DNA of 64,000 nt, taken from assembly GCA_964036195.1 (NCBI GenBank), contig OZ038453.1:18327206-18391205 (forward strand), written 5' to 3'. The notes under the pieces are model-generated. The model saw only the letters and a list, made by a program, of their open reading frames with translations, searched no databases and was not told the origin of the DNA. Both the position numbers and the translations under genes were made by a program. This stretch comes from Sphaerolaimus hirsutus (lineage: Eukaryota > Nematoda > Chromadorea > Monhysterida > Sphaerolaimidae). Positions within the stretch are counted from its first letter, which is position 1, and the number at the start of each line of letters is the position of its first letter. Shown piece by piece: positions 8,190 to 63,207 of this stretch.

Positions 8190-8355
8190 TCCTGTTGCCT
8201 AACTTAACAAGTGACAAGAAAGTTGACAAGTTAACTCACAACTGTCAAGTATTTTCAGTGACAACTTTACTGTAACTTATGAATTTACTTGTCACTCATC
8301 ACTCATAACGCGGCTTACCACTTTTTGTCACTTGTCCACTCTGCGGAATTAGCAC
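8190..8355. repeat. Partial TTCCGCAA-family element
   Basis: AACAAGTGACAAG words on the left and TCACTTGTCCACTCTGCGGAA on the right form an imperfect hairpin directly abutting the next foldback. Confidence 0.5.
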
Positions 8356-9081
8356 CCGGGGCCAGTTCCGCAAGTGGACAAGTTAAGAGTTAAAAGTTAA
8401 GAGTTGAGTAAAATGACAAATGGCGAGTTAAGAGTAAAGTTAAAGTTTAAGAGAAAAGTTAAAGTTTAAGAGAAAAGTTAAAATTTAAGAGTTGAGTCAA
8501 ATGTTAAGAGTGGAGTTAAAGGTTGAGTTAAATGTTAAGAGTTGAGTTAAAGGTTAAAAGTTGAGTTAAGAGTTGAGTTAAAGGTTAAAAGATGAGTTAA
8601 AAGTTAGTTTTAAAGACAAATGGGGGAAAAATGTAATACAAAAAAATAAAAAATAAAAAAATGAATTTGGATCTTGAGAGCGTTAGATTTGAAACAACGT
8701 TCCGCGATTTTTTCTTTTTTTAGCGATAATTTTTTTGGATACATCATTTTCAAATGACGTGCATACAACATTGGCACCATGCCAGCGAACAGCCATATCA
8801 ATACCAATTTCACATTTTATTTTATTTTATATTTTTTACCACCATTATCCACTTGTCTCTTAACTATCAACTCTTAACTCAACTTTTAACCTTTAACTCA
8901 ACTCTTAACATTTAACTCAACCTTTAACTCCACTCTTAACATTTAACTCAACTTTTAACTCAACTCTTAAATTTTAACTTTCCTCTTAAACTTTAACTTT
9001 ACTTTTAACTCGCCATTTGTCATTTTACTCAACTCTTAACTTTTAACTCTTAACTTGTCCACTTGCGGAACCGGCACCAGG
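8356..9081. mobile_element. Large foldback element with GTTGAGTTAAAG arms
   Basis: The left end (CGGGGCCAGTTCCGCAAGTGG, allowing small differences) is inverted at the right (CCACTTGCGGAACCGGCACC). Each arm is about 250 bp of reiterated GTTGAGTTAAAGGTTAA words, complementary in the other arm. A central unique region near 8640-8830 has an A/T-rich core and no coding capacity. Confidence 0.85.
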
Positions 9082-16485: not shown

Positions 16486-16666
16486 TTACACCAGAGAAAT
16501 TTGGAAAACTCAAAAATGTGTTTAAGACGCATTTGAGTTTACAAGAATGAGGATTCTGTTAACTATTGTTGACGGCGATTAATAGTTGTTCATCTTGGTA
16601 AACTCAAATGTGCTCAAAACATATTTATGTGTTCCCCAAATTTCAGTGGTGTACTAGTGTGCGTCG
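16486..16666. mobile_element. Hairpin element ending CACTAGT/ACTAGTGTG
   Basis: GCGCACACTATTACACCAGAG at the left pairs imperfectly with the right end GTACTAGTGTGCG. Inner AAACTCAAA words are inverted across the element. Confidence 0.6.
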
Positions 16667-16672
16667 CCACAT

Positions 16673-16840
16673 TGGCCCCACACACGCTAGTTGACATCGA
16701 CAACAAATGTCAACTGGTATCGATCTCAAAGCCAAGCTTTCATTTGAACGTCGTTCGTTAAGTCTTCAGCAAGCTTTGAATTGGGATCGAGACCAGTTGA
16801 CATTTGTCATTGATGTCAACTAGTGTGTGTGTGTGGGCCC
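16673..16840. mobile_element. Hairpin MITE, CACACACTAGTTGACA family
   Basis: CACACGCTAGTTGACATCGA at the left is inverted as TGTCAACTAGTGTGTGTG at the right. Inner arms AAATGTCAACTGGT and ACCAGTTGACATTTG also pair. No open frame is present. Confidence 0.8.
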
Positions 16841-18407: not shown

Positions 18408-19147
18408 CCTTCGCATAGAATCTATTTAGGCAGGCTTCAATTCCACATGCTTTCCAACGGCTAATTATCAGAAAAAGCTAGAAAAAAACTTTTCAAATAT
18501 TCATCGTCGCAATTTCAGCGCCATGGGTTTGAAAATTTCAAATCAATTTGTCACTTCTGCTTAGATAATCACTTCAGCTGAAACTTGCCTTGTCACAGGG
18601 GACTCAAAATAGGTTCCAGATAAAGCTATTTACGAATAATTTGATTTCAAACGTGTTGCTAAATAGCATCGCAGAAAATTGACGCGATCAAAAACAATAA
18701 AATTCTACTCAAATTCTCTGAATGGTGATTTACGAATTGGCATCACATTTTTTATATACCACCCCTCAAAATGGCCGCACGCCAACAATTGCATGAAGCT
18801 TAAAGAGTAAGATATGAAACTGTCAAATAGCACTGAGACATAAATATCTAAGACACATCTACATATTTATGTATTTGCATTACATAAGCACAAGCATTTC
18901 ACGGTGGCCCAACGCAAAACACCTGTATTACACCACTTTCTTATAAATATACTGTACAAATAATGCCAGAAGTACAGGTGTTTCTAATAATATGTACATA
19001 CAGATGTACATGGGGTGTGTATAAAGTAGTGGGATAGAAGGTTTTTTTGTGGGTAAATTGTGTACATAAAATATGAATCCTCTATAATTTATGTGTTCTA
19101 TCAGTGATCAAACTTTGGAGACATGTTGAAAATAAGAACCATTGACA

Positions 19148-19346
19148 TCCCACACACTAGTTGAGACATGTGCGTCAACTGGTCTGTGTCAACTCAGATC
19201 TCGGCTTCACTCTTCCGATGCACTTGCTGCAATATTCATTTTTCAGCATTGCCGCATGTGCATTTGCAGATCTGCATGTGATGTATAAAGTCAAAATCTG
19301 AGTTGACACAGACCAGTTGACACATGTGTCAACTAGTGTGCGGGCT
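19148..19346. mobile_element. Hairpin MITE, CACACACTAGTTGACA family
   Basis: CCACACACTAGTTGAGACAT is inverted at ACATGTGTCAACTAGTGTG. Inner CAACTGGTCTGTGTCAACTC pairs with its complement ahead of the right end. Confidence 0.75.
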
Positions 19347-19849
19347 GCCCCTTCACACTGCCAGAGGATAGTTTATGGTCACCTGAAACCATAGTTAATT
19401 GTCATTGTCACTGAATGCACACTGCAAACTTCAACTGGCATCTAAAAACCCACCTTAATTTCCCAACTTCTCAGGGCACTTTAAAGTGCCACAACCCCAC
19501 AGTCCCACTACTTTTCACATACCCGTGCACAGGTGTGAAGTGGCTGCCGTGTGTGTGTGTCGTTTTGTTACCACCCAGTGTCGATGAGATGTCAGTATGT
19601 AAAGTATGTATTTATTATGTTTGTTTGCTTAACGTTGCAGCCCTGGCCCCCTGGCTCGGTGGATATTGAGTTTTGGGCTGAGAAAAGGTGCCAAATGTCT
19701 ACTTGTCTGGATTGGTTTTTGGCGATTTTGTGCCACGCCTATAATCGTGTTTTTTTTGTAGTGCCCTGCGGTAGGGCGTCAGGGGAGAGATATAATGGGC
19801 TTGACACTTTTTGGCAGCCCTGTGATAAAATTTGACAGTGTATGATCTG

Positions 19850-30736: not shown

Positions 30737-31973
30737 GACATTTTACATGACTATTGACAGTTTGCATGACATTAGACGTTTTACAGGGCAGTTTGCACTG
30801 TGGCTTAAAAATAACAAAGGCCACAGGTCATAACTTCTTTTCAATGCACTGACGAATAACTAAAAATGAAATGCATCAGTAAAACTGTAAATCCATTTCA
30901 AACTATCAAATGGGAGGTTTCTCTTCGGGTCGGATCGACTCAAATTATTGACTAACATTGGTACGTTTTAAAACTGGCACATTTTATGTTAATGCCTTTA
31001 TATCTGAAAAATCAGAAAGAAACCACAAGAAATAAACAATACATACAAAAATACGTATTATGCATGGAATTTACTACACCATTTGACATTTTAACTGCCC
31101 ACTAGACAGTCTAACGTGGTAATTTGTTCACGAACCTGTCACAGCAATGTGTGATCAGTAGTAGCATATCACAATGCTGCAGATTGTCTCCAGGGATGAA
31201 ATTTGATTTACTAATGAAATGGCCCGTCTTTTCGGGTTACCCGAGTCACTGAACCCGAAATAACCTGTCCGATTCAAGTTTTTTGGAATTGACATTTTGC
31301 GGTACAACGAATCGGGCTGCCCGACAACAAAACCGTCGGATAATCCAAACCACATAAAAACAGCCAAGTCACGATGCACACGCACCCGATCAAATCCACC
31401 GACCCAGGACCCAAATTCAAATAGAGGGTAGCGCGCCCGACAAACGATTGAGCAGCGAAACTATGCACCATTGTCGGGCGCCTTACAAGTGCCTTACGTT
31501 TCAATTGAATCTGACCCCAGAGGGAAATCCCAGACCCCAGAAAATTCCCTGTAAAATGTCAAATGGCATGCAGAGTCAAAAATGCCCTGTAAAATGTAAA
31601 ATGTCACGCAAAGTGACAAAAGTGTCCTGTAAAGTGTCGAATGTCATGCAAAGTGTCAAAAGTCATGTAAAATGCCCTGCAAAATGGCAACTCGTTTGCA
31701 CTTTTTCAGCTTAATTTCCACGACTTTCAATGTTACGTCAACGTACCAATGTTAGTCAATAATTTGAGTCGATCCGACCCGAAGAGAAACCTCCCATTTG
31801 ATAGTTTGAGATGGATTTACAGTTTTACTGATGCATTTCATTTTTAGTTATTCGTCAGTGCATTGAGAAGAAGTTATGACCTGTGGCCTTTGTTATTTAT
31901 AAGCCACTCCCAGTGCAAACTGCCCTGTAAAACGTCTAATGTCATGCAAAGTGTCAAAAGTCATGTAAAATGC
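30737..31973. repeat. Long inverted repeat, 230-bp arms
   Basis: Arms 30737-30966 and 31741-31973 are near-identical reverse complements, for example GGGTCGGATCGACTCAAATT on the left and AATTTGAGTCGATCCGACCC on the right. They are separated by about 770 bp. The outer parts of each arm contain TGTAAAATGTCA-family sequence. Confidence 0.85.
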
Positions 31974-49500: not shown

Positions 49501-52500
49501 ACGAAACTTCACAACTCACAAATCAGTTGAGAGCGCATCTGAGTTTTCTACAGTGAGGTGGCCGTCAACTACAGTTGACGGAGATTAAAAATGACTCATT
49601 GTGGAAAACTCAAACACATTCAAAGCTCATTTATGAGTTTTCATAATTTCGTGCGAAAACTAGTGTGCGCAGGGCCGTTGTAACGAAGATATATAGGTAG
49701 GTATACTCGGCGGACCGCAAAGTATGCACCCAGAATTATTTATGTCTTGGTCGATCACGCGCGAGTTGGATACTTATGTATACACTTTCACAAAAAGAAA
49801 ATTATTTAAAAAAAGAAAAAGGCGGAGTCGCGTACAAACGATGAATGTTTTTTCCCGTCATGTTTTTTCGTATTTTACTGGAATTATTTTTATTTTATTA
49901 ATGATGACGTCATGATGGAGTGTTTCCTTCAGAAAAATGCATAGCATGCGGAGTATATGTACGAATTTTTTAACGTTTATAACCCCTCCACCCCCTAAGG
50001 GTCCAAATTTTGTAGACCCCAGATCGAAAGAAGCTTCTCTAGTTGTTGGCGGTAGAATCAATATGGTCTTATACTACCGTATTTCCTCGAAATACCCCCT
50101 TGGATGAACCCCTCTCGAAAAACCCCTCGTATTAACCCCCCTCAAAATACTGAGGAAAACTAGAAAGCTGAGGAAAAATACCCGCCCCCACGGGGGTATT
50201 TCCAGGAAACATGGTATTTATTAGGTGGATTTTTTCCTCGATCGGGCTGCCTGAAAAATGTCAGGCAATGAAAATTTCACGCCAGCCCGTAACTAATAAT
50301 GGCCTGCCTCCATCAAAGTGCCAACTAAAAAGCAAACTAATGCTGTGCACAAAACCTCCAACGACTTTGGAGAAAACCAGAGAAAAAAGCCATAAAAATC
50401 AACGTGTCAATGGGCCCACACACACTAGTTGACATCAAAATTAGTGTAAACTGTATTCAACAAAATTTTGTTTAATTATGTGATTTCAACTTTCGTATCT
50501 GATTAGAGCATTGAAAATTAAGCGTGATGCTTTTAAAAAGTTTTTTTCTGTGTGTTGACAATCAGTTGACACGAATTTGTGATGTCAACTAGTGACTGTG
50601 GGCCCAATATCTCAGCGAAATCATAAACATACTAAAAACACCTCCGCCACAAAAACTCCAATAAAATCAAATCCAACCACCTTCAAACTTTGCTAACCTT
50701 GCGCCTTATGGGGGGTCCTTTGCATGGTACCCCCGGGGGTACCCCCCGACGTGCCCAAAGACGAACCCCCGTGCAGCTGTTTTTCCAACGCTAGTTGTTC
50801 CGCTTTACGCTTTTCGTACTGCTCGCGGATTCGCTGCCTGCGTTTTGAGATAGGGTTGGGAAATGTGTGTTTTTTGACAGACACCAAAATTCACATAGCT
50901 CGAAATTTGAACGCAATTCAAACGCACCGATGCAATTCCTTTTCCACTTTTCTCATTTCCTGCTGCTCTTTTTCTCGCTCCTCCTTTTCCTTTTTTCGCG
51001 CCATTTTCTCTTCCTCCTCGGATTTTTTCAGCGCCATTTTCTGTTGGCGTTCCATGGCGTTGCGCAGGAGTTGTTCCCGTTTCGCTTGCATTTCCAGCGT
51101 CTGCACGTGGAAATGACCATAGTTGTAAAAAAAGTATTGAGTATTACTAAAAAAATACATATACTCGAGTACTGAGTAAATACGCTTACGTTACCATAGA
51201 ATAAAACCAGTATTTACCTTTACGCGTAGTTTCAAAAAGAACGTAATTGATACTTTTTTCGGATGTATAAAGAACAAAACGAATTGATACGGATGCAAAA
51301 AATGGCAGCGGGAATGATAGAATTTGCCATAGGTATGGAAAGCGACCACTCTTGCTTTTACTTTTACTGTTTTCCTACAAAATCGAAAAAATTCTAGCTT
51401 TAGGTTTCCCCGAGTAAAAATACTGGTATTTAAGTTTACTGAACTTTGATGCAGCGTAAAAGCACATGCAAGAAATTGTTTACGTTTTCAGTACTCAGGG
51501 GTGAGTAAAAAAATGCTTCACGTTTATGTTTAGTTTGAAAAATGTTCAGTACTTTTGACAACTATGGAAATTATACGGACGAGCAGTGATGCGCAATAAT
51601 TAGTAATACAAGTTATACAAGTTATATAAGTTATACAAGTATCCAGCGAATGTGGTAGATATCGCGCTGAGTGACCTGACATTGAAAATTGAAACATTGA
51701 AGACACACAGGAAATTTTTCTTAACACAGGTCTAGGGTTGGAAAAAAACGTTTTTTTTAAACTCGATGTTTTTTTTAAAACGTTTAAAAACATCTTAAAA
51801 CGTTTTAAAAAAAACATCGGCCAACCCTACACAGGTCACTTAACGGGTTTCGGTGCAATTAATTAAGCACCCCCAAAATCACCACGCACCCCAAAAACCA
51901 ACCCTAGTATCCGCATCAGAAGGTCCCATCTTGACCACAAATCCATCCGCGGACACATTCGTAATAGTTTTCACAGTATTCCCACCGCTAGTTGACCCGG
52001 TGGGAGTATGGGCTGGTGGATTTTGACTGGCTGACTGGTGACTTTGCGGTGATTCCAGTGGGTGGCTGCTGTAATAGGGTTGGGAAATTTGTGGTATATT
52101 TTGTTTGGGTGTAGAGTGCCAAAGTGTATAGCGTGTTTGTAAGAGGTAGGCTAAAGTTTTGTAAAAAATTTTGTGGTGCACTAAATTCTGCCACCCTTGT
52201 TGCGTGGTCCTTACGCAAGTGGGCAAGTGACATAAACAGTGGTATACTTGAGTGACTATACACCTTGCATGCATAGTTCGCGCTGGAAGTGTGCCAATGA
52301 CAGTTAAAGCATGTGATTTTCATAAAAACATTGATAAAAGTCACTGCTGTAATAAAGGTACATGCTAACGTACTCACAATAACTTGAATCTTTTTTTTCG
52401 AAAAGCGCATGCTTTAATTATCGTTGGCACCTTTCCAACATGAGACATAAATCAGTAGTGCGAGTGCAAAGTATCAAGTCCGTTGAGCATATTATGTAAA

Positions 52501-55500
52501 AATGTGGTGAGTCAACTGGCAAGTGAACTTGAAAATGTCAAGTAAATTCAAATAGAAACGTAGTCGTCGCTTACTGTCACTTCTAAGGTTAATCGTCAGT
52601 GGACTTACCAAGTGACTTAACTTGATTTTTTGTCACTTGTCCGCTTGCGTGATTTCTCACAAAAACAAAAAATACTATTCCTATATCAAAAACTCAAAAA
52701 ACTGGAATAACCCAATCTTCAACCCCAATCCCACCTCTCAGCAATTTCAACCTCCCCCTTATACTGATACGGGTGTTCCTGGTGCTGCTGCAAAATGTGG
52801 TTATTATTCCCTTCGGAACTGAGTTTGTGTTGGCTCGTTGCCAAGCCAGGCGGAACGTCCGCGGACCACTGCCGACGCGCTGAGCCGGGCATCTGGGTTT
52901 GCAAAGAAAAAGATTGAAGTAAGGCTACAAAATTCGGGAGGCCAATAATATAAAAAAACGTGTAAAAACGTGTTGAGTGTTCGTTAATGACATCTGTGAT
53001 GAGTAAATTTGTTGGAGACAATGGGTCCCATCTGGAGACCTGGGGCCAGTTCCGCAAAATGAGGAGTGAGAAGTGTAATGGTAAAGGCGAAGTAAAAGCG
53101 CAAAGGCGAAGTGAAACGGCAAGTGAAATGGCAAAAGCGAAATAAAAAATAAAAAGCAGTTTCTCTTCGCTTTTGCCATTTCACTTGCCAATTCACTTGC
53201 CATTTTACTTCGCCTTTGCGCTTTTACTTCGCCTTTGCCATTTCACTTCTCACTTGTCATTTTGCGGAACTGGCCCAGGGGTAGACACCATCTAAAAGCC
53301 ACGAAAGTTTAAAAAAACTCTTCATTGCAAAAACAACGCCGTCTAAGACAAATAAAAAGTCACCCCCAAACAAACCATCTCATTTTCATCCACACCCCCA
53401 CTCTGCTTCCTCTGCACAAACCCAGAATCGTCAAAACTTCCATTCTGAGCGGCACCCCCCTGTTGCCCTTGATTTTGACTCATAGCCTGTTGCCACATAT
53501 CGGCGTCCCAAGTTCTGCGGGGGGCCCTGCGCGAAGAATAGCCACCCCCTGAGCGGGGGGTGGTCATGGTGCCGCTCATTTGTTGGTGACGGAGGTTGTT
53601 GGGGGTGGGGTGGCCGGATTGACGTTTGTAGGTCATGCCTGAGGGGGGGGGGGGGGTTGAGAGGGGTAATATTAGCCCCTGCCCCCTAAATAGATATGAT
53701 AAATTTCACCCATTATCAGTTACCTGTGTGCTAGGGTTCAAACGGGATCCCGATCCCGATCCCGGATCCCGTGAAATTCCGGGATTTACCAGTCCCGATC
53801 CCGATCCCGAAACCCCAATCCCGATCCCGAAATCTCAAAAATACCAATCCCGATCCCGATCCCGAAAGTTTTCAAATCCCGATCCCGATCCCGAGAAACT
53901 CCCAAGTCCGGGATCCCGATCCCGGAAAAATTAGTGGAAATTATAAAAAGTGAAATAATGACGTTTTTGCATGCAAAAAGTGGATGCAATCCCCCAGCGT
54001 CAATTTTATGCCACTTTTCTGGCATCCAACAGTGTTTTGAGACCTTTATGAACAACTGTGAATGCCAGAAAAATGGCCAAAATCTCTATCCCTAGAACCC
54101 AATCCCGATCCCGGAAAAATGCCTATCCCAATCCCGATCCCGATCCCGTGACCCCAATCCCGGCCAATCCCGATCCCGATCCCGAAATCTCAAAAAACCA
54201 ATCCCGATCCCGATCCCGAAACCCCAATCCCGATCCCGATCCCGAAATCTCAAAAAGTGAATCCCGATCCCGATCCCGAAAAGTCAATCCCGTTTGAACC
54301 CTACTGTGTGCGTGAGACAAATTTTAGACATGCTACTGTACTGTACTGTTATTGTTACTGTTACTGTTACTGTTACTGTTACTGTTACTGTTACTGTTAC
54401 TGTCGTAGCTTTTGTTGTTTTTGCTATTCTTTTGACGGCTTAATGCAAAAATTCACACCTCTTCGAAATTTCTCGAAGGACATACAAAAAGTTATAGCAA
54501 TATTCCATGCAGTTCGCCCAGTATCATTCGATATACCGCAAAACCTACAAAATCACGCAAATTACACATTACAACATAATTAAGACATAGGTGAATCCCC
54601 CGCTAACCCCCCAGGTAATCCATTAAAACCCCGACAAACGAACCCCAATTAGTCAAATTTCTCTGCAACTCCAACTGAGGATCCAATCTACTCTCCGGTC
54701 CATTATCTGAATGCAATCGGAATGACTGGACATTTTGGTGGTCACTCCCGAAATTGGGGGGTGCCGAGGGGCTCACTTGGGAAGGATACCCCCCGCTCGC
54801 GGTGCTGGGGGTTATGATGGAAAATGACTGACCCCCGGGCGCCATGGTGGTACCTGGAAGGGGGTATTTTTGTTGTGGGTTTAGAATTGGGTCACATAAT
54901 TCTAAAATAAAAAATATTTATTTGTGTCAGGTTACAAATTTGTAAGTGGGGATAAATGCATGTCATTTGTCACCTGTCAACTTCAGGTAATGGGTAAAAA
55001 TGTAGAAAATAAAAATACAAATTAAGGTAAAAAAATACCCTCTGGAAATGCCCCTTCACAGGGGTCTCGAATGGGGGGGGGGTTACCCACCCCCCAAACC
55101 GCCCAGCTATCTATCTATCCCGGAGGCCGCTCAGCTATCTATCTATCCCGGAGGCAAAATTTTGGGCTACTACCTAGGGTGGCAGACGGTACGGCCTTGC
55201 GGTAAACCGTACGGTACGGTAAATTCTGCCACCCTACTACTACCCCCTAAACCCCCCCCCCCCCAAATCGCTCAGCTATCTACCTATCTGGAGCGATTTT
55301 TCAGAAACTATACCCCAATTTTCACTCAAAATCGCTATTTTGCATACCTATATATAGATTTTCACCTCCAAAATCACTGGTTCATGAGTCTAACTGCCTA
55401 TTTTCAGCTATTTTAAGTACTTTATGCTCTTGTATACCCATTTTGAGCTATTTTACACCTACTTTTAGCGATTTTTCTCCCTTTCCTTCCTTCTATGCCC

Positions 55501-58500
55501 CGAAAAAGCCTATATATCGAACCACCACAACCCCCCCAGAAAATTTTTCAGCTATCTATCCCTACGGAGGAGCGATTTGCTATCTATCCAACCACTCGGA
55601 GGGTCAAAATTCAAGATACCCCTGCCCCTTCAACCACATATGAGTCAGTTGACAGATGCTAGCACCGTATCAAAAGCTACAGAGATATGTGAATGGTAGT
55701 GTAAAATGTCAATAGTGCAGTATCTTTTACCAGACACATAAAGTGACCTAGGAGTAGTGATGTAAAAAGTGCCAGGAGTTAGGCGCCAAGCGCGCCATGG
55801 TGCTTTTTCGAACCCCAGCGCCAAGCGGCAAGGACGCCAAGCGCCAGCAGCGCCATGGCGTTTTCGCTTTGACGCTAGCGCCAGACACAAAAAGCGCCAA
55901 GCGCCAAAAGCGCCAATGCGCTTTTACATCACTACCCAAGAGGACCCCTTTATACCCCCCCCACCATTCCCCCCACAACCAACCAGCGATCTGCACCGGG
56001 TGCAGGGGGGTCGCGTAATTCGACTGCGCTTGGAAATTCGCGTGGGGAGGGGTCCGGCCCAGCGTCGAGTAGGGCGACGCCATTCCACCCCCGCCGCTGG
56101 CTGAGGGCACTGGGTTGGGGGGCGGGTGTTTTGGAGTGAGAATTGGGGCTATGTCAAATGTTATGGAAAATCTCAAAAGTCTTGTAAAATGATGGAAGTC
56201 AACGAAGTTTCCTATTTTACATAACTTTTGACACTTTCCATGACATTTGACATTTAACAAGGTTTGGGATTGCCAACTGTAGGCAGTTGTTTGTTTTTAG
56301 GTCTCTACATGAATGCATTTGACTTCGCGATTTTGATAATTCGCACGCGCAATTTGAAACATGAATTGAAAATTAAAATAACATATAGTGAAGGTAAGTG
56401 AAAGACAACTGTCGGAATACCAAAAAGTCGGCGAAAATCGGCGAACCAAAAAACCCAACATTCCAAAAACCACTCCCACCAACCATTAACCCTAGGACTG
56501 GCATAAATCGCAGGTTGACTCATAGCGTGACTCAACCCCGGCGCCATATTAACCCCAACCCCCTGCATCTGGGGTTGCCCCATCCCCATTGCAAACTGAT
56601 TCTGATGTTGTTGCGCTACGAACTGCTGTTGGGCCATGTTCGATTGGTCTAGTCCGGCGGACAAGCCGTTCAGGTTGTTCATGACGCTGCCGCCGCCGGT
56701 GAACATGTTCGACTGGGACGCGGCCGCTTGAAGCCGCTGAAGCTCGAACACTTCGTGCTGAAGGGGGGGGGTATAAATATGTGACAATGGCGGTATTAAC
56801 GTCGGTTTCCGGTATAAGTGCCGGTTCTCGGTTCCGGTTCGGGTATTTTTTTCGGTTCCGGTTCTCGGTTCCAAAATATGCGTGGAACCGCGGTTCGGTT
56901 CGGGTCGATTCGGGGGCACAACCATGTGGTAATTTAGTGGAAAACAACACTACCATTTTTCATCGAAATACAACCTTGAATTAACCCCCCCCCCTCGAAG
57001 TACCCCCCACCATCCACGAATAAGCACAACTCACTTACAACTTAACCCATCACTTGGCACTTTGTGTCACTTATTCACTTGCGCAATGGGCACCTGAAAA
57101 CGCGAACCTGCAGTCTCTCCAATTCATCTCTCATGGAGCTGTCGCGCCTACCGTAACCGACAGAACTAGGACTTGGCTCGGCGCCAAAATTACTGGGTGA
57201 GGCAGCGTTCATGTAGGGCCGCTGTTGGTGTTGCATTTGGCGACGCATGTTTTCCTGTGGTGGCGTGGATTTTTACAAGTGATCTGATTTAAGTGAATTT
57301 TAAAGTGACAAATTTTTTCGGGTAGTTGTAAAGGGAATTATACCGTATTTACTCGAAAAATTCCCCCGTGTTTGCCGAGTCGTAAAATATAAATAAACGT
57401 CCCACGATCGAATAATTCCGGAATATGATATTTACTTGATGTTGAATATTTCTATTGAATTTGAACAAAAAATGGAACGTTGTAGAGCATATTTCATTAA
57501 ATGATACAAACATGCTTGAAAATATTGACGAAAGAATAATCCCCCCATTGCATAGCCTCCCATCCCTCGAAAAAGTCGTGACAAAAATATTTCCCGTGGG
57601 AATTATTCGAGTAAATATGGTAATAAAAAGACGCTGCTTGATTTTATTCGGCACCAAACGGAATCAAGGTTTGAATGAAATGGATAAAACCCCACCCACT
57701 CACATTATCCATGGACAATCTCTTAATCTCATTCGTCAAATCGGCCAATCTTTTCTGCACAAAATCCCCCTGATTCCCGGGACTCTCATACTGGTGAGTT
57801 TCCGGCGCCGTACCGGAAACGCTTTCCGCAGCGACGAAACTCTCCGGTCGCTTTTGCGTTTCCGTTTGCGTTTCCCCGTGGGAAGTGTGTTGATTTTGAT
57901 CCTTGGAAGGCGTCGTGTGGGCGGAGTTTGCGGACGATTTCCCGCCGAGCTGAGGTTTTTTCCGCTTGACGTCGGGTCGCATTTTCGGATTTTTGGAGAC
58001 TTTTTGGGGGTAGTGATGTGAAAAGCGTCGTATGGAATAACGACAAAATCATATGAGATAAGGCATCATATATGAAGAAAACTGATTTTTTAATGACCCC
58101 GTTAAGAAAAATTTTTTTGACGGGGTCTTAAAAAAATCCGGCCATCTCAAAAATGAAAACTTTTTCACGGCCTTTTTTCCAATAGAAAAATAAAAAAATT
58201 TCATAAATTTTCGCGGCGCGATTTTTTCCAGCACACTTAAATTGTGACACTTTTAACATCACTACCCGTGGGCATAGGTCAAAACACTTTGAATTTCCGA
58301 CACAACTAAACTTTGCCGCGTACTCCCCCCGGTGTATTCAATAGTTGCTAAGTAAACCGGGCGGCACGCGTTCGAGCGAGTGCCCGGCTCAATGCATAAT
58401 AAATGCGCCTCGGAGAAAAGATGTGCACAAAGGCTCTACATAAACAATGGGCAAGGGTGTTTGTCGCCTATCAAACACCTGATAAGACAAATAAAATTGA

Positions 58501-61500
58501 TAGAACAGAGGGCTAGTACGTTTGAAAAACTGAGTTATCAAATCCATAAGTGTAATAATTTACATTTTTAACGGGCTGGGTAATTCTTCTTGACACGGAT
58601 ACTGATCACTGTGGTGTGAAAAACATTGTTTTTTTCGACCCCGTTTTAAAAAAATCTGATTTCCCGCACATGCCAACACACCACGTGGCGCTGCACACCA
58701 GTCGACAGTTGATCAGTGGTCAACTAAAAACTCAGTTAAAAAAATACAATTGAGTGAACTCCACTGGCAACTCAAGTGACCCACGGCAAGAACGTACGCA
58801 TTGCCGTTAATCCAAGACATTCAATATTGATTTTTCAGTTGACCAACGAGCACCCATCAACAACTGTTCAGTCAACTCACCGCCTTAAAAAAGGCATCCT
58901 TACTCTTCTGCTCCCGTTCCCTCTTCAACTGCGCATCAAGTTGCGCCCTCTGCGTAGCATAATGCCTTTTCCTTTCCTCCAAGCCCAATCTGATGCTGGC
59001 CGACACGCCCGGCATGCCCGGCACGCACGCGTCCGACGCCGAGGGGCCGGAGTTGGCGGGCGCGCAGTAGGATTGCATCGGGTTGGTGGCGCTCGTGTGG
59101 GAGGCTGGGGGGGGGATAGAGGTTTGGGTTTTTTTGTATTCTTGTTGTAAGAAAGATTGGAAGAAAGATTTCTTTCCATTGTCTTCACCGGTTCGCAGGG
59201 GTCTCCAACGGGAGTTGGGAGTTATACATTCCGGTAGCCATACAGACATTCAGACACTCTTACCGGTAGCTATAGTACTTGGCCTACTGTAAACTACACC
59301 CATCCCAACGAAAAAACCTCTACCTGATGCCAGTTGCGCAAAATGACAAGTGAGAAGTTAAATGGCAAAGGCGCAGTCGGAAATACTGAAGGCGGCGGCT
59401 TCGCCTTTGCCATTTCACTTCTCACTTCTCATTTTGCGGAACTGGCCCTGGGGTGCATTTTTGTGAAGCGTGGTATGGGTCCACGACCAGGGGTCTCCAA
59501 GATTTTGGCCCTCGCGGGGGCTGGATAGATTGCAAGTCGCTCCTCCGAAGGGATAGATAGCTGGAAAAAATTTCTGGGGGGGGGCTCCCGGGGGCAAAAT
59601 ATATAAGCTTTTTCAGTGCATAGAAGGCAGAAATTAGGAAAAATCGCTAAAAACAGGTTAAAAGTACCCAAAACAGGCTAAAAATGGCTAAAAACACGTA
59701 TATAAACATGTGTATAGGTGAAAGCCGCGATTTTGAAGGTGACAAACTATAAAATGGTGGGAAAATTAGCGAGTTTGAGCGAAAATTTGGGCGAGATTTC
59801 TCAAAATTCGCTCCAGATAGGTAGATAGCTGGCCGATTTTGGGGATAGATAGCCAAAAATTTTGCCCCCGGGATAGATAGATGGCTGAGCGGCCTCCGGG
59901 ATAGATACCTAGATAGCTGGCGGATTTGCCCCCCCCCCCTAGGAGACCCCTGCCACTGACAACATACATTTGACATAAAAGTTACTAAACACGAAAGATC
60001 AGAATAAAAAATACAAAACTTATTTTCGTATAAAACTAGTGGATAGCTTTTAATGTGACTTCAAAGTAAATACGCTAATAATCAGTGTATAGTATGTATA
60101 GTGTGACTGAGCATTGTGAATAGAATTCCGAAACAGTGCTCGCTGCGGACTCATGTAATTTATAGTTTTAGTCTCTCAAAATTTGTAGTCAAAATTCAGC
60201 TTGACAAAAATGGCAAAACACTTTTTTTCAGGCTCAGCGATGGATAAAATAATCCAAAGAAAAAGATCATGGCGACCGATGAAGCTGGGTCCCGTTTAAC
60301 AGATTACGTAATTTAAAATGACATAAATGAAACAAAGGTTTCTGGGGGATGGGGGAGGGGTTTGGGCGTGGGTGACACCTAATGTCAACTGGTTCCCATC
60401 CCAATTCAAAGCTTGCTAACGAGTAACACTACGCATTGTTGTATACGTATACACTTCATGCTCGTTTGTATTTGAACCTCGTTGTCGGCTCGTCAGCAAG
60501 CTTTGAATTGGGATCAGAACCAGTTGACAGTTGGTGTTGGTCAACTAGTGTTCGATTTACGCTAGGTAAGAATTTCCGACCCACCTGGATCCTGGAGTTG
60601 ACCAAAAGTTGTTGTAGGCGATTTGAGTAGATCTGCCGGCCGCTGCGCCTTGTAAGTTTTGTACTTTAGCGAGTCGACGCTTCTGCGGGACATTTTGGGG
60701 ATGGAAAGTTGAGATTGTCGCGATTTTGTTTTTAGGATTTTTTATGGATTGACATTTTTCAAGCGGTATGGTATTTTTATTTTGGTCACAAGGAATACAA
60801 ACAAATCAACTGAACAGCCAGTGGCAATTTTAGGGTTCAAATTGGACCACGGTCCCGGTAAATTATTCGGTAAAATCCCGGGACTGTGGCGGTCCCCGTC
60901 CCGATTCCGCGTTCCCGATAGAAAAATTAATGATCCCAGCCCGAAAAACTGATACCGTTTGAATACTAAGCAATTTAGCAAATTTACGGTTGCTCTTGCA
61001 AATATACAAGCTTGAAAATACGAAGAAAAATTCAAAAAGCCAACCTCTGTGTCATGAGTGAATCCATCGAATTGAGCATCGAAGTCGGCACATCTGTGAT
61101 AAGGAAAGTAATGGTAGCAAAGAGTCAAATACTCCGTCAAGTTACCGTATTTACTCGAACAATCCCCCGGATCCAAACACTCCGTCAACATACCGTATTT
61201 GCGTCAAAATTTTCAGCATTTTTCTATCAACTGAGTTCATGTAATGTGCTTTGTTAACAAAATACCATGCCATTTTTGTGCAGATAATGCACAATAAATT
61301 TCACATGTGCCTAAAGCATGCCATTTTTGTTCAGATTATACACAATCAATTTAACAATACACAATAATGTGCCTAAAGGGGGTATAATTCAAGGGAACAT
61401 TATTCAAGATGAGATTATTCAAGTAAATACGGTATAAGAAAAACTTCAGAAGCCTTTTTGTATTTATCATCCCTGTGTAACCGAAATTACAATCTCGAAA

Positions 61501-63207
61501 CGTAACCAACTATTCATATTGCCGTTAGGTTGACCCCTCCTCCCCGCTGGCACGTTCGCTTTACCGGAACCGGTACCGGATCGCAAATCCGGTATGGCCT
61601 GAATTTGCGGTGTGTGCCGCGCCCTAGCGTTGTTATTCCGAACTTGAGAATTAACCGACTGGTTTGGAGTTGACGGATTCTGGTCGGATTTCGGTGGATC
61701 TGGGTGGGCGGAGTTAAATGCAGACGCACTTGAATGTTTGGGGAAAAGCTACATAGAGAAATCGCATGAAATTGTGCAAATTGTGCAGTTGACCGCTGAC
61801 CCAATGGCAAATAGAACGAGTAGCACCATTAGGAGCCCAAACACTAGTTGGAACATGTGTGTCAACTCGTCTTTGTCAATTCAGATTTCGGCTTCACGTG
61901 TCGCAGAGCGACCTTCCAATGCACATGCGGCAATGTTGTAAAATAAAAATTTCGGGCATTGGAAGGTCGCTGTGCGACACGTGAAGCCGAAATCTGAGTT
62001 GACAAAGACCAGTTGACACACATGTCAATTAGTGTGTGGGCCGTCATTAAGAGGAAAACCGAAACCATTCGGAACTTCATTACATCCCACAAAAAACAAC
62101 GCTAAAATCAACCAAAAACTCCCCAAACAAACCATCCTTAGCCCCCTCAAAAGTCACAAACAAATCGGTCAAAAACGCGTTCACATTAGGCTGCATACTT
62201 TCCGGCATATACAACACGTCTTCCACGGACATGTGAAACGTGTTCACGGGTAGATCTTGACAAAACTTTTGCACTAAACGGACGTTGTAAGCGCAATCGC
62301 CCACCCCCATGGGATCATTCAGGCAAATGTCTGCATTTTTGTGGGGGGGGGGGGGTTAAATAAGGGGTCCCAAAATTGACCGTGACGAAAATCACACTGG
62401 GTACAGTGCGGGGCCAGTACACGCTAGTTTACAGACGAAAAGTGAGAAATTCAAGTCTTGTTCTTGACTGATTTGAGTTTACTCGAATAAATCATTTATG
62501 ATGCCTGTAAATAGTAGTTCACGGATGCATCATTCCGTAAACTCAAATGCGCTTGTCGGTGATTTATGTGTTGACGGATTTACCTATTGAAATTGAAGTG
62601 TGTGGAGATGTAAAATGTGAAATGTCAGATAAGTTTAACAAATAAATATATAACCGGTCAAAAGAGAAAATATTACCATGTAACCGACATTTTACATGGT
62701 ATTTGATAATTTTATATATATATACCTATGCCATGCCACGTCATTTTTCTGACATTTTACAGAACAGGATAAAGACCGCTCCCCACAGCGTAGATTTCCC
62801 CTACACACAAATACAACCACCTTCGAATAATCCCCCCTCTAAAAATCACTAGACTTCAATCCACAAAAAACACTAGCCCGAAACCCAATCGAAAATCAAA
62901 AACAACCACCCTCGAATAATCCCGCCACCAATAAATAACCATAAAAATCACCCGACTACCCTCATTAAAAACACTCGAATAATCCCCCCTCCAAAAAACC
63001 TTTTGAAATCACCCAACTCCCACTAACAAAAACACACTAGCCCCAAAACCCAATCCCAAACATTTAAAAAAAACAGCCATAACCCACCAGGTGCCTTCAT
63101 TTGTTCGGGCCTATAAAAAGCGCACACCGTACAAACACAGGCCCCATCACACATGTCCTCGTATAAATCTTCCATTTCTGGGATAACTGGACATTCGCTC
63201 AGGGCGC
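46401..63207 (-). CDS. Patronin: Patronin/CAMSAP microtubule minus-end-binding protein (5' partial), 22 exons
   Basis: CAMSAP/Patronin proteins bind and stabilise free microtubule minus ends and organise non-centrosomal arrays. The exons below join into 1,113 residues with every phase consistent. The order is: the C-terminal half of the CAMSAP CH domain (residues 1-106, with ICLNDPMGVGDCAYNVRLVQ), a short SVDSLKY/YKAQRPADLL segment, a charged helix (LGLEERKRHYATQRAQLDAQ, about 240-265), a long Gln/Ser/Gly-rich linker, a Lys/Glu/Arg-rich coiled coil (about 790-870), and a complete CKK domain (about 985-1105) from SNRAIIINAL to the C-terminus. The CKK is the minus-end-recognition module and defines the family. 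One gene of this type suggests an invertebrate. The first coding exons lie right of the window. Introns are full of repeats. Identity is secure; linker splice sites are inferred. Confidence 0.93.
46872..46970 (-). CDS. Patronin: Patronin exon: CKK domain, part 2
   Basis: It encodes AVYTWDEVGDTAHKISGMGP and KQVNESEMQLMF, matching the CKK segment FRALYSY-PDTEQIYKLTGTGPK. The acceptor is TTCGCAG|GGCCGT and the donor is TTCAA|GTGAGT. Confidence 0.97.
47348..47531 (-). CDS. Patronin: Patronin exon: CKK domain, part 1
   Basis: The acceptor is TTTCCAG|CGCTGA. It encodes LKLFKKPTTKSNRAIIINAL, a stretch with IFSGAVHAEAKGKVLEELAK, and HFLILFRDQKCQY. These match the CKK pattern SNR-II-NAL...GAVN---K-KVLEEL---...HFLILFRD. 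The donor is TATAG|GTTCGT. Confidence 0.97.
48082..48178 (-). CDS. Patronin: Patronin exon: linker before CKK
   Basis: The acceptor is ACACGCAG|ATGAAA and the donor is CCTG|GTCTGT. It encodes MKSSPSDNQLAAVSGGRRGS and REKISVASIQEP. The other two frames contain stops. The split Ala joins LKLFKKPTTKSN. Confidence 0.85.
48671..48789 (-). CDS. Patronin: Patronin exon: Ser/Lys linker
   Basis: The acceptor is TTTTTCAG|GGCGCG. It encodes RAKSQTPGRPKSQVVASSAG and then IKSALSQQKLAEEGGR. The donor GGCAGG|GTTGGT is phase 0. It bridges the phase-1 microexon and the phase-0 next exon. Confidence 0.75.
49347..49370 (-). CDS. Patronin: Patronin 24-nt microexon
   Basis: The acceptor is CTTTTAG|CTGAAT and the donor is GGCAG|GTAAAC, close to consensus. 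It encodes ELEALAA between split Ala and Gly residues, and fits phase 1 in and phase 1 out. It is short, so it could be skipped in some transcripts without changing the frame. Confidence 0.65.
49485..49680. repeat. Hairpin element in Patronin intron
   Basis: Left GCGCACACTTCACACGAAAC is inverted at the right end (GCGAAAACTAGTGTGCGC), with AAACTCAAAC and GAGTTT words inside. It is related to the element at 16486. Confidence 0.6.
50075..50216. mobile_element. TA-flanked TACCGTATTT MITE in Patronin intron
   Basis: It starts TACCGTATTTCCTCGAAATA and ends GGTATTTCCAGGAAACATGGTA. It is short with C-rich blocks. Confidence 0.78.
50412..50608. mobile_element. Hairpin MITE, CACACACTAGTTGACA family, in Patronin intron
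   Basis: GGGCCCACACACACTAGTTG is inverted at GTCAACTAGTGACTGTGGGC. The interior is A+T-rich and near-identical in layout to the copy at 37482. Confidence 0.82.
50698..50837 (-). CDS. Patronin: Patronin exon: end of coiled coil
   Basis: The exon completes the helix with QRIREQYEKRKAEQLALEKQ, then a Gly/Ser/Thr linker and MQRTPHKAQ. The acceptor is AACGCAG|GCAGCG and the donor is CAAG|GTTAGC. The split Arg joins the previous exon exactly. Confidence 0.9.
50928..51100 (-). CDS. Patronin: Patronin exon: Lys/Glu/Arg coiled coil
   Basis: The acceptor is CACGTGCAG|ACGCTG and the donor is CATCG|GTGCGT. Fifty-seven codons of nearly pure charged helix include TLEMQAKREQLLRNAMERQQ and MARKKEKEEREKEQQEMRKV, the coiled coil preceding the CKK domain in this family. 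Confidence 0.93.
51118..51566. mobile_element. AGTTGTTAAAA-family hairpin MITE beside a 3' splice site
   Basis: CATAGTTGTAAAAAAAGTAT is inverted at AGTACTTTTGACAACTATG. Flanking GAAATGAC and GAAATTAT match at 6 of 8 positions. It ends 17 bp upstream of the Patronin exon starting at 51100 on the - strand. Confidence 0.75.
51725..51837. mobile_element. hAT-like mini-hairpin with 8-bp TSD (CACAGGTC)
   Basis: TAGGGTTGG (51733) is inverted at CCAACCCTA (ends 51829). CACAGGTC flanks both ends exactly. The 97-bp interior is made of AAAACGTTTTT-type runs. Confidence 0.88.
51903..52068 (-). CDS. Patronin: Patronin exon: GFVVKMG segment
   Basis: The acceptor is ATTACAG|CAGCCA and the donor ACTAGG|GTTGGT is phase 0. 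It encodes SHPLESPQSHQSASQNPPAH and onward to ITNVSADGFVVKMGPSDADT. The GF-hydrophobic segment just before the coiled coil resembles the short GFF motif at that place in CAMSAPs, an inference from position. Confidence 0.8.
52771..52892 (-). CDS. Patronin: Patronin exon: His/Gln linker
   Basis: The acceptor is AACCCAG|ATGCCC. It encodes MPGSARRQWSADVPPGLATS and then QHKLSSEGNNNHILQQHQEH. The donor CACCC|GTATCA is weak. It was preferred to GGGAG|GTTGAA because only phase 2 keeps the next exon open. Confidence 0.7.
53039..53279. mobile_element. Foldback element, TTCCGCAA family, in Patronin intron
   Basis: GGGGCCAGTTCCGCAAAATG is inverted at CATTTTGCGGAACTGGCCCA. The arms are AAAGGCGAAGTGAAATGGCA words and complements, giving an almost uninterrupted hairpin. 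Confidence 0.85.
53376..53638 (-). CDS. Patronin: Patronin exon: MTYKRQ / TWDADMWQQ linker
   Basis: A 14-base C run and TCAG precede the exon. Eighty-seven codons include MTYKRQSGHPTPNNLRHQQM, RRAPRRTWDADMWQQAM and GSFDDSGFVQRKQSGG. The donor GAGATG|GTTTGT is phase 0. No fold is assigned. Confidence 0.85.
53724..54311. mobile_element. hAT-like element filled with CCCGAT repeats, 8-bp TSD (CTGTGTGC)
   Basis: TAGGGTTCAAACGGGAT at 53732 is inverted at ATCCCGTTTGAACCCTA ending 54303. CTGTGTGC flanks both ends exactly. Most of the interior is TCCCGATCCCGATCCCGAAA blocks; a unique segment lies at about 53935-54095. Confidence 0.92.
54334..54404 (+). repeat. (TTACTG)n hexanucleotide microsatellite
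   Basis: About eight to nine uninterrupted TTACTG units follow TACTGTACTGTACTG. It starts 23 bp after the right duplication of the CCCGAT element. Confidence 0.95.
54644..54853 (-). CDS. Patronin: Patronin exon: Ser-rich linker ending LTNWG
   Basis: The acceptor is CTTCCAG|GTACCA and the donor is TTGGG|GTTCGT. It encodes TTMAPGGQSFSIITPSTASG and then a segment ending LELQRNLTNW. The split Gly joins MTYKRQ of the next exon. Confidence 0.8.
55051..55632. mobile_element. hAT-like element with 8-bp TSD (CCCCTTCA)
   Basis: CAGGGGTCTCG at 55059 is inverted as the CCCCTG end at 55624. CCCCTTCA flanks both sides exactly. The interior has CTATCTATCTATCCCGGAGG words. A second, smaller hAT-like hairpin (55175-55236) is nested inside. 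Confidence 0.85.
55167..55244. mobile_element. 62-bp hAT-like mini-hairpin with 8-bp TSD (CTACTACC)
   Basis: TAGGGTGGCAGA at 55175 is inverted nearly exactly at TCTGCCACCCTA ending 55236. CTACTACC flanks both sides exactly. The interior is ACGGTACGG words in both orientations. Confidence 0.9.
55755..55934. mobile_element. TAGTGATGT-ended hairpin with GCGCCAA words
   Basis: TAGTGATGTAAAAAGTGCCA is inverted at GCGCTTTTACATCACTA. The interior is GCGCCAAGCGCC and GGCGTTTTCG words. Flanks CCTAGGAG and CCCAAGAG match at 6 of 8 positions. Confidence 0.75.
55984..56100 (-). CDS. Patronin: Patronin exon: Gly/Ser/Pro linker
   Basis: The acceptor is TGCCCTCAG|CCAGCG and the donor is CGCTG|GTTGGT. It encodes SGGGGMASPYSTLGRTPPHA followed by NFQAQSNYATPLHPVQIA. 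Phases match on both sides. Confidence 0.8.
56145..56277. repeat. TGTAAAATGTCA-family element in Patronin intron
   Basis: CAAATGTTATGGAAAATCTC and AAAGTCTTGTAAAATG on the left are inverse to the right arm ending AACAAGGTTTGGGATTGCCA. Confidence 0.6.
56484..56757 (-). CDS. Patronin: Patronin exon: Gln/Met/Asn-rich linker
   Basis: The acceptor follows a 9-base C run and TTCAG. The exon encodes HEVFELQRLQAAASQSNMF and then a Gln/Met/Gly-rich tract through MSQPAIYASPRVN. The donor AATG|GTTGGT (phase 1) was chosen over CCTAGG|GTTAAT because only it matches the phase of the next exon. Confidence 0.8.
57108..57254 (-). CDS. Patronin: Patronin exon: Gln/Arg-rich linker
   Basis: Forty-nine whole codons run from ENMRRQMQHQQRPYMNAASP to MRDELERLQ, with acceptor CACCACAG|GAAAAC and donor CTGCAG|GTTCGC. 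It joins HEVFELQRLQ of the next exon to form a continuous predicted helix. Confidence 0.85.
57341..57622. mobile_element. TA-flanked TACCGTATTT MITE in Patronin intron
   Basis: It starts TACCGTATTTACTCGAAAAA and ends AATTATTCGAGTAAATATGGTA. The inner ATAATCCCCCC blocks fit the family. Confidence 0.78.
57704..57949 (-). CDS. Patronin: Patronin exon: linker with LADLTNEIKRLSM helix
   Basis: The exon is phase 0 at both ends. The acceptor is AACCTCAG|CTCGGC and the donor GATAAT|GTGAGT is a strong consensus. The content is a polar linker ending QKRLADLTNEIKRLSMDN, a probable amphipathic helix. The acceptor could lie a few codons upstream. Confidence 0.8.
58011..58264. mobile_element. TAGTGATGT-ended hairpin in Patronin intron
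   Basis: TAGTGATGTGAAAAGCG is inverted at CACTTTTAACATCACTA. Inner GACCCCGTTAAGAAAAATTT pairs with the following GACGGGGTCTTAAAAAAATC region. Flanking octamers are only weakly similar. Confidence 0.65.
58881..59104 (-). CDS. Patronin: Patronin exon: first charged helix
   Basis: A C-rich acceptor (ending CCCCAG|CCTCCC) and a consensus donor GGCG|GTGAGT bound the exon. After a Ser/Ala/Pro linker it encodes SIRLGLEERKRHYATQRAQL and KREREQKSKDAFFKA. This corresponds to the conserved CAMSAP helix where KRR-IE--Q and KAAF/SAFL-like words occur, and supports the family call independently of CH and CKK. Confidence 0.9.
59323..59453. mobile_element. Short foldback, TTCCGCAA family, in Patronin intron
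   Basis: CCTGATGCCAGTTGCGCAAA is inverted at TTTGCGGAACTGGCCCTGGG. The arms AATGGCAAAGGCG and CGCCTTTGCCATTT are exact complements. Confidence 0.85.
59488..59952. mobile_element. CAGGGGTCTCC-ended hAT-like element (reverse copy)
   Basis: CAGGGGTCTCC is inverted at GGAGACCCCTG. The interior is the reverse complement of much of 55059-55624, including GATAGATAGCTGG words. Flanks CCACGAC and CCACTGAC differ by one inserted base. Confidence 0.78.
60365..60560. repeat. CTAGTTGACA-family hairpin, diverged
   Basis: GTCAACTGGTTCCCATCCCA and AATTCAAAGCTTGC are inverted at GCAAGCTTTGAATTGGGAT and ACCAGTTGACA. The outer ends are eroded. Confidence 0.65.
60585..60682 (-). CDS. Patronin: Patronin exon: SVDSLKY segment
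   Basis: The acceptor is CCCGCAG|AAGCGT and the donor is ATCCAG|GTGGGT. It encodes SVDSLKYKTYKAQRPADLLK and then SPTTTFGQLQDP, a Ser/Lys-rich linker. No domain is assigned. Confidence 0.8.
60823..60976. mobile_element. TAGGGTTCAAA hAT-like element with 8-bp near-duplication
   Basis: TAGGGTTCAAATTGG (60831) is inverted imperfectly at CCGTTTGAATACTA (ends 60968). Flanks GGCAATTT and AGCAATTT match at 7 of 8. The interior has GGTCCCGG and CCCGATT words, a diverged relative of 53732-54303. Confidence 0.78.
61045..61093 (-). CDS. Patronin: Patronin short exon (49 nt)
   Basis: The acceptor is TATCACAG|ATGTGC and the donor is CAGAG|GTTGGC. It encodes VPTSMLNSMDSLMTQ plus split residues at both ends, and restores phase between its neighbours (phase 1 in, phase 2 out). 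Its inclusion rests on that phase match and a good acceptor. Confidence 0.65.
61143..61434. mobile_element. TA-flanked TACCGTATTT MITE in Patronin intron
   Basis: It starts TACCGTATTTACTCGAACAA and ends ATTATTCAAGTAAATACGGTA. A second internal TACCGTATTT at 61191 suggests a nested or partly duplicated end. Confidence 0.78.
61565..61699 (-). CDS. Patronin: Patronin exon: linker after CH domain
   Basis: This is a Pro/Ser/Asn-rich linker (PPKSDQNPSTPNQSVNSQ and onward to IPDLRSGTGS). The acceptor is CACCCAG|ATCC and the chosen donor is TCCG|GTAAAG, the best consensus at phase 1. The open frame continues some 60 bases further, so the donor is the least certain point. Confidence 0.65.
61836..62042. 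mobile_element. CACTAGTTG hairpin in Patronin intron
   Basis: CCCAAACACTAGTTGGAACA pairs with TCAATTAGTGTGTGGGCC. Inner CGGCTTCACGTGTCGCAGAG and TGTGCGACACGTGAAGCCG are complementary, giving a long hairpin. Confidence 0.8.
62133..62330 (-). CDS. Patronin: Patronin exon: CH domain, C-terminal half
   Basis: The acceptor is AAATGCAG|ACATTT. Sixty-five codons include ICLNDPMGVGDCAYNVRLVQ and FHMSVEDVLYMPESMQPN, aligning with the DICL...ADSLYNLQLI...LEDMLYA pattern of CAMSAP CH domains. The donor is AAGGATG|GTTTGT at phase 1. Confidence 0.95.
63088..63207 (-). CDS. Patronin: Patronin exon: CH domain, first part in window
   Basis: The acceptor follows a 14-base C run (G run 63210-63223 on +). The exon encodes ALSECPVIPEMEDLYEDMCD and then a segment ending FYRPEQMKAP, matching the CAMSAP CH core where DGA and FYCPEQMK-like words recur. 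The donor is CCTG|GTGGGT at phase 1. It starts mid-codon, so an upstream exon exists outside the window. Confidence 0.9.

Follow-up and report, generated by a model that had tools for sequence, protein, structure and literature searches.

Nonautonomous hAT-type transposon families with word arrays in Sphaerolaimus hirsutus and the possible concerted turnover of their words

How do short transposable elements acquire arrays of simple words near their ends, and why should close neighbours carry different ones? The question is raised by a stretch of 64,000 nucleotides from the nematode Sphaerolaimus hirsutus (C4:18327206-18391205 of the 348-Mb assembly, referred to below as the window), which contains five short elements, E1 to E5. 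The first-pass annotation of the window described elements flanked by exact 8-bp repeats and filled with a different motif in each copy, and proposed that one hAT transposase moves them all while the interiors form by local repeat expansion. This was a natural, partly mistaken reading of real elements, of which the observation is partly confirmed and the interpretation partly supported. As set out in the following, the elements are very probably nonautonomous hAT DNA transposons that resemble miniature inverted-repeat transposable elements (MITEs) and belong to several multi-copy families, with words that are putative transposase sites and that seem to change between sister families whose tips stay alike. 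The nonautonomous, MITE-like label is given for the size, copy number, uniform length and inverted tips seen in E2.

The repeats around E1 to E4 are all exact 8-mers, as had been reported (Table 1). YARNG is the consensus tip form of hAT elements, and a search of the window for such ends (first five bases equal, at least 7 of 11 equal) yielded four exact duplications at 8 bp, one at 6 bp and none at 7, 9 or 10 bp. In 100 dinucleotide shuffles of 1-kb blocks the mean at 8 bp was 0.03 and the maximum 1, so that the four found are not a product of chance. A search blind to the end sequence, with 6-base inverted ends, gave 11 rows at 8 bp, namely E1 to E4 and seven others, four of which sit within the word array of E2. 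Note that the short inverted YARNG tips of E1 to E4 emerge without the pattern as a filter; for E5 the pattern was the filter. When two mismatches were allowed, 14 rows were found in the window where shuffles gave 7.3 (maximum 15), and as this is near the shuffle level, E5 rests on the match of its ends in 11 of 11 bases. E5, whose GCGCCA repeats have the same direction in its left and right halves, and the old element at 60831-60968, in which exact GTCCCG now occurs only twice, once on each strand, were absent from the earlier annotation. E3 is nested in E4, which has relatives at 59488-59952 and in loci L009, L028, L032 and L062. The ends previously taken as shared are truly of the hAT type, but those given as CAGGGGTC agree in 7 bases only (CAGGGGT).

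Relatives elsewhere in the genome were examined for three of these elements. For E2, 40 of 1177 first-look candidates were scored, giving at least 43 match rows, and 28 of the 30 best copies were flanked by an exact 8-bp duplication, with one mismatch in L010 and a broken match in L025. In an alignment of 29 copies, with four minus-strand loci turned and L025 left out, the interior differed from the majority by a mean of 0.60% substitutions, copy length ranged from 561 to 597 bp, and 12 of 14 gap runs were multiples of 6 bp. The low divergence and the 6-bp steps show that the interior is conserved and that it is mainly the number of words that varies. E2 has the MITE features of short length, high copy number, uniform size and inverted tips. 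Joining 60 flanking bases per side with one copy of the duplication retrieved strong paralogous empty sites for 7 of 28 copies (L008, L009, L016, L019, L022, L024 and L028; 93-100% over 91-120 columns) and weak ones for seven more (L002, L003, L006, L007, L012, L017 and L018; 77-84%). For L019 and L022 the joined flanks are found unchanged (100% over 120 columns) within E1-family loci, and E2 had thus inserted into E1-family elements.

The 62-bp sequence of E3 was used as a query in the same manner (40 of 1020 candidates scored), and 27 of 30 loci showed an exact duplication. Three of these copies (L031-L033) are 62 bp long, each with a duplication of its own, and the other 24 measure 754-1397 bp. 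All 24 long copies carry the unit ACGGTAAA at both ends, on the + strand only; its first left copy is at position 41 in every one of them, and its last right copy lies 21 bp before the end in 21 of them (L046, L049 and L055 deviate). As 41 and 21 add up to 62, E3 is built as if everything between the outermost repeats had been deleted, with the first left repeat of the long family fused to the last right one. The three 62-bp copies may have moved in this short form or have arisen independently. The site of E3 within E4 is uninterrupted in L062 (90% over 121 columns). At eight of the 30 loci no right end was seen initially, of which L033 was later settled; six of the eight were read further for an autonomous copy, and four of them proved to be copies of 763-834 bp in which the right tip is mutated and the duplication exact. 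The remaining two had no readable right end, and inspection of open reading frames by eye in these longer reads revealed no autonomous copy. In L037 and L048 the middle of the E3 family is 78-80% like E4 over some 80-90 columns in reverse orientation, so that cores are partly modular between hAT families.

For E1, 40 of 101 candidates were scored and 20 relatives fetched with about 700 bp each. Eleven have exact duplications and two have one mismatch; L075 and L076 share one duplication and probably represent a local duplicate. Full copies of 590-690 bp possess a conserved middle, which E1 (97 bp) and L077 (82 bp) lack, and E1, to judge from this comparison, is a short deletion derivative of the longer conserved family. 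Its 25-nt arms are 96% complementary and its word is palindromic. A short stretch with GCGCGCTTGCGCGC is found in the cores of both the E1 and the E3 family (88% over 42 columns).

E1 and E3 are thus short derivatives without the element middle, and the view that the interiors are copy-specific microsatellite palindromes and not conserved deletion derivatives has to be abandoned, given the uniform interior of E2 and the conserved families from which E1 and E3 derive. What remains of local repeat expansion is the gain and loss of words between E2 copies; interiors are not made anew in each copy. Similarly, a different motif in each copy is correct for the three neighbours in which it was noticed, but within families the words are constant. 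The 8-bp duplications, as anticipated, recur genome-wide in all three families.

A wider survey covered 107 sequences (363,468 bp) that overlap, were chosen for these families and are not independent. With YARNG ends, a tip identity of 9/12 and an exact duplication as filter, it found 103 elements at 8 bp versus 4, 3, 1 and 1 at 6, 7, 9 and 10 bp, respectively. Outside the E1, E2 and E3 tips there were 23 elements, or 20 after removal of identical copies, and some of these 20 rows give one element in another reading (two in L009) or enclose a nested one; rows with 9/12 tips (e.g. L043 and L048) are less sure. The families have in common short hAT-type terminal inverted repeats, an exact 8-bp target duplication and family-specific clusters of words near both ends. 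As a separate observation, a hAT-type family in L009, L023, L034 and L044 has CAGTGGCGTAGC as its 12-bp ends and is flanked by exact 8-bp duplications, but a word array belonging to the family itself is not obvious; in L009 and L034 it contains nested E2 or E3-family elements.

Word arrays are located at both ends of E2, the E3 family, the E1 family, L087, L088, L090 and L061, and in several families the clusters of words often have a spacing of 30-40 bp (19-71 within arrays in the examples taken). In E2, CCCGAT occurs on the + strand 10 times in the left and 11 times in the right half and never on the minus strand; read as ATCCCG, the word has 16+19 copies on the plus and three on the minus strand, all three in the left half. 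A direction mainly common to both ends was also seen in L087, L088, L061, L043, L065:1316-2792, E4, L062, L032, E5 and the MITE in L097, several of which were judged on few word copies, and L090 has 6+6 words on the plus strand and four on the minus strand in its right half. In most families with directed words the direction is the same at both ends, which is not what inverted tips would lead one to expect. Hairpin arms were considered for E2 and the E3 family and are ruled out by these one-directional counts, as they are for E4 and E5; the description as two arms of a hairpin also fails for E3 itself, a 62-bp stub, and E1 has complementary arms. In families with palindromic words, namely the longer form AAAGCGCTTT of AAAGCG, the word of E1 and CGATATCG, direction is hard to judge. 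The hexamer AAACGG is found near both ends of L087 (11+10 copies) and L088 (11+12), the TAGGGTGTCAAC group, and at most once per half in E1 to E5. Subterminal repeats are described as a defining feature of hAT elements (PMC4890040), and Ac transposase binds AAACGG cooperatively (PMC3260210). By analogy, the word arrays fit hAT subterminal repeats.

Nearly all words contain CG (ATCCCG, GTCCCG, ATATCG, AACGTT, AGCGCT, AAACGG, ACGGTA, AACGTA, AGCGTA, GACTCG and GCGCCA; those without are ACACAG and CTATCTATCC), by a plain tally. Heavy CpG methylation as a background to the CG-bearing words was considered and rejected, as the CpG observed/expected ratio of the window is 0.92, without strong depletion.

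With all 108 candidates scored, the hAT dimerisation domain (PF05699) was detected at 28 genomic places, and three open reading frames were confirmed as hAT with E values of 1.5e-11, 4.4e-18 and 4.5e-13. The 3' side was read at 20 loci (L087-L106), corresponding to 21 of the 28 places. Nine loci, Group A (L087, L088, L091, L096, L097, L099, L100, L105 and L106), have a TAGGGTGTCAA- or TAGGGCGTCAA-type end downstream, reached in L091 only after 1.5 kb, and CCGTTT (= AAACGG) arrays are present in the seven inspected for them (all but L091 and L099). Group B (L093, L094 and L101) has the end CGTTTGAACCCTA with ATATCG arrays, ATCTCG being the outermost word in L094, and a protein search (at least 88 matches, 150 of 418 candidates scored) added L107 as its fourth locus. 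Group B carries the 13-bp tip of E2 and a similar spacer, with ATATCG in place of ATCCCG, and the MITE in L097 combines the tip of E2 with the word GTCCCG and the duplication GTCACGTA. In L087, L088 and L090, the last with ends CAGAGTTG, the hAT fragment lies inside complete short elements with YARNG ends, an exact 8-bp duplication and word arrays. The 2590-bp element L066:3404-5993 has ATATCG words, and no transposase was recognised by eye among its open reading frames.

Membership in the hAT superfamily, as first proposed, has good support as regards the design and the duplications, from the genome-wide 8-bp duplications, the paralogous empty sites and the dimerisation-domain fragments beside ends of the same design. 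For E1 to E5 themselves it is supported less directly, because none of the transposase genes read has exactly their ends. As to the hAT with the same ends that the first-pass annotation had called for, fragments lie within elements of the same design in L087, L088 and L090, and the 13-bp tip of E2 stands beside hAT fragments with ATATCG; the exact ends of E1 to E5 were not found.

The comparison of families with similar tips leads to the part of this analysis that we consider worth following, a concerted turnover of words that may reflect a switch in transposase specificity. Counted on both strands as ATCCCG/GTCCCG/ATATCG, the words number 38/1/0 in E2, 0/8/0 in the L097 MITE, 0/0/23 and 0/0/15 at the ends of L093 and L101, and 1/0/30 in L066. 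In the CAGAGTTG pair, L090 and L061, the same A-to-G change is found in 13 of 13 aligned L090 words (6/6 at one end, 7/7 at the other), the difference outside the words is 15-17%, and in the opposite reading three of the four end-1 words of L061 correspond to AACGTA in L090. Alignment of L081, of the E1 family, with L055, of the TAGGGATGG family, gave 73.5% over 612 columns (E 7e-90), with AACGTT/AGCGCT counts of 5/0 and 0/4, respectively. The words that differ between sister families are ATCCCG/GTCCCG/ATATCG, AACGTA/AGCGTA and AACGTT/AGCGCT. To judge from these comparisons, the case for concerted turnover is strong for L090 and L061, and for the other two pairs it is good by counts and weaker by alignment. 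We would tentatively go further and consider it possible that a radiation of hAT elements within one animal genome is visible here, in which the binding word was swapped in the subterminal copies and the tip, with tips and spacers still homologous. If so, the families would display a series of switches in the specificity of transposase for DNA, each new family being no longer moved by the transposase of the old one.

Several observations weigh against these conclusions. In the alignment of E2 with Group B only 3/6, 3/6 and 3/7 ungapped words read exactly ATATCG, the rest being misaligned or variant; against the L097 MITE 5/7 read GTCCCG, and between the E1 family and its sister only 1/4 ungapped words equals the sister word exactly in each direction, a poor word-by-word alignment of L081 and L055 that is due to their different array lengths. 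Word direction is mixed for AAAGCG of the TAGGGATGG family in L055 (two plus and three minus left, three and one right), and in L065:4528-5185 (0/2 left, 3/0 right) it is inverted if the word is a directed one. Some Ds1 elements without the hexamer are still able to transpose (PMC3260210), hence words are not always required. Among the 20 hAT-domain loci seven have no recognised end (L089, L092, L095, L098, L102, L103 and L104), the loci read include no transposase gene with the ATCCCG word of E2 or the ends of E1, E3, E4 or E5, and they yielded no full-length autonomous element, the hAT genes having been read as 3'-terminal pieces only. No duplication was readable in the E3-family copies L043, L059 and L040, the last with its flank displaced by one base, nor in seven of the 20 E1-family relatives, in which no right end was seen within the fetched sequence. 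The empty-site test of the E3-family copy L034 gave no match spanning the joined flanks, and the apparent empty site of the E2 copy L021 is an artefact, as a second partial E2 starts directly beside it. Finally, the copies examined are the best-scoring ones of the E2, E1 and E3 families, which favours young, intact elements.

By analogy with known hAT systems, the words would be subterminal repeats bound by the N-terminal zinc finger of the matching transposase, and with such binding the word, more than the tip, would set which transposase moves an element. Sister families would separate as transposase specificity and word copies change together; repeat slippage and gene conversion would keep the copies of a word uniform, tips and spacers would stay similar, and a changed finger and a changed word would jointly found a new family.

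That the word reaches into the inverted repeat and differs there along with the array is hard to reconcile with the alternative that the words are passive microsatellites, in which the hAT tips alone are recognised and unstable arrays grow and homogenise by replication slippage. The recurrence of word clusters across several families, often at the spacing given above, and the identity of one group's AAACGG with the Ac transposase site likewise speak against it, and slippage by itself does not put the same word at the two ends of an element. We consider this alternative unlikely, even if it would accommodate the 6-bp step changes between E2 copies and the few words kept in E1 and E3 with their 8-bp duplications, and has a precedent in MITEs described with hitch-hiking microsatellites (PMC9659126).

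The explanation given in the first-pass annotation, a single hAT transposase acting on shared TAGGGT tips, with interiors that local repeat expansion or template switching creates afresh in every copy, drew on three neighbouring copies with unlike words, and the variable, 6-bp-stepped word number of E2 might seem to agree with it. It is nonetheless very improbable, as the interiors are conserved in the copies of the E2, E1 and E3 families that were read, tips agree in 6-7 bases only between families, and tips and words differ with the transposase fragment; ends, words and fragments fall into several families and not into one. P elements also duplicate 8 bp and Galileo has long inverted repeats and a foldback-like form, but in spite of the 8-bp duplications and repeat-rich ends an assignment to Galileo-like elements of the P superfamily is hardly credible, with hAT dimerisation domains within or beside elements of the same design, tips that fit the YARNG pattern, repeats that are mainly direct, and an inverted repeat of only 17 bp enclosing direct arrays in E2.

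The reading of the elements as nonautonomous hAT transposons with putative binding words implies that an array of simple words in a MITE is not necessarily a hairpin or a microsatellite that arose by accident, and word-specific arrays would help to assign MITEs to their transposases. The importance of subterminal repeats for hAT transposition is established, but the way in which a family acquires a new recognition sequence, with dozens of sites changing together, is to our knowledge an open question. Sister families in one genome, with similar tips and unlike words, make it directly testable by binding and excision assays. A concerted replacement of words among hAT families was not found described in the open-access literature, judged by titles.

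The window holds further repeats of other kinds. A family of true hairpins with ends near CC(T)GG(G)GCCAGTTCCGCAA (1697-1945, 8354-9082, 53043-53276 and 59329-59446) has no 8-bp duplication by eye; its arm motifs vary by copy, with AGTTAAGAGTTG at 8354 and GAAGTGAAATGGCAAAGGCG types elsewhere, and it is nearer to what the first-pass annotation had described. A second set of repeats, mostly hairpins, has CACACTAGTTGAC or a close form near the ends, often after GGGCCCA (Table 1). Elements with a 19-20 nt unit like AAATGTCATGCAAAATGTC are found at 30739-31972, 29471, 39214 and 56151-56253 and include an inverted pair of 233 columns with 96% complementarity. Elsewhere in the genome, the end CGATCCCGTTTGAACCCTA forms five same-orientation pairs exactly 478 bp apart among the listed part of 225 places, with none in a reversed-pattern control; these may represent a mobile element of composite or tandem structure.

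Table 1. Positions of the elements, their flanking duplications and further repeats (window positions, except for the last row).
Feature	Position	Strand	Ends, flanks and content
E1 left target site duplication	51725..51732		CACAGGTC, 8 bp
E1	51733..51829	+	97 bp; ends TAGGGTTGG/CCAACCCTA; palindromic word AAAACGTTTT; without family core
E1 right duplication	51830..51837		CACAGGTC
E2 left duplication	53724..53731		CTGTGTGC
E2	53732..54303	+	572 bp; 17-bp terminal inverted repeat TAGGGTTCAAACGGGAT; ATCCCG arrays at both ends; word-free middle
E2 right duplication	54304..54311		CTGTGTGC
E4 left duplication	55051..55058		CCCCTTCA
E4, hAT element	55059..55624	+	ends CAGGGGT; CTATCTATCC repeats; split by E3
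E4 right duplication	55625..55632		CCCCTTCA
E3 left duplication	55167..55174		CTACTACC, within E4
E3, minimal element	55175..55236	+	62 bp; ends TAGGGTGGCAGA; word ACGGTA
E3 right duplication	55237..55244		CTACTACC
E5, probable hAT element	55755..55934	+	ends TAGTGATGTAAAA; flanks CCTAGGAG/CCCAAGAG alike in 6/8
E4-family relative, reversed	59488..59952	-	flanks TCCACGAC/CCACTGAC match only with a 1-base gap (by eye)
Old element	60831..60968	+	E2-like ends TAGGGTTCAAA; GTCCCG word remnants; flanks GGCAATTT/AGCAATTT alike in 7/8 (by eye)
CACACTAGTTGAC repeats	16477-16663, 16679-16831, 19146-19347, 37493, 50411-50606, 60375-60537, 61835-62041
CGATCCCGTTTGAACCCTA pairs	C2:26251450/26251928, C6:10810556/10811034, 11902854/11903332, 11984338/11984816, 20712691/20713169

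Among known systems, SIMPLEHAT1 and SIMPLEHAT2 of Arabidopsis (Repbase) are plant hAT elements of the nonautonomous kind, whose interiors hold simple repeats, for example CCCGAA. MITEs with internal microsatellites, such as the lepidopteran 'mobile microsatellites', are likewise short nonautonomous transposons with tandem repeats, but there the microsatellites are titled hitch-hiking (PMC9659126), whereas the repeats of the present families match the subterminal place and clustering of hAT repeats. Kat1 has hexamer subterminal repeats as well, with a polarity that differs between its two ends (PMC4763223), in contrast to the same polarity in E2, the E3 family and L087/L088. Tgf2 and Tol2 share the feature of many subterminal repeats per end, 17 and 18 in Tgf2, which are contacted by a zinc finger (PMC4890040). 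Further parallels are offered by Ac/Ds of maize, with 8-bp duplications, short inverted tips and the transposase-binding hexamer AAACGG near both ends, and by the Ds elements, which have tips and some hexamers in common and vary in size and interior (PMC3260210); the L087/L088 group carries this very word of Ac. Unlike in Ac/Ds, the loci read here gave no complete autonomous copy, the directed words run mainly one way at both ends, and a single genome contains several words, by which its sister families differ.

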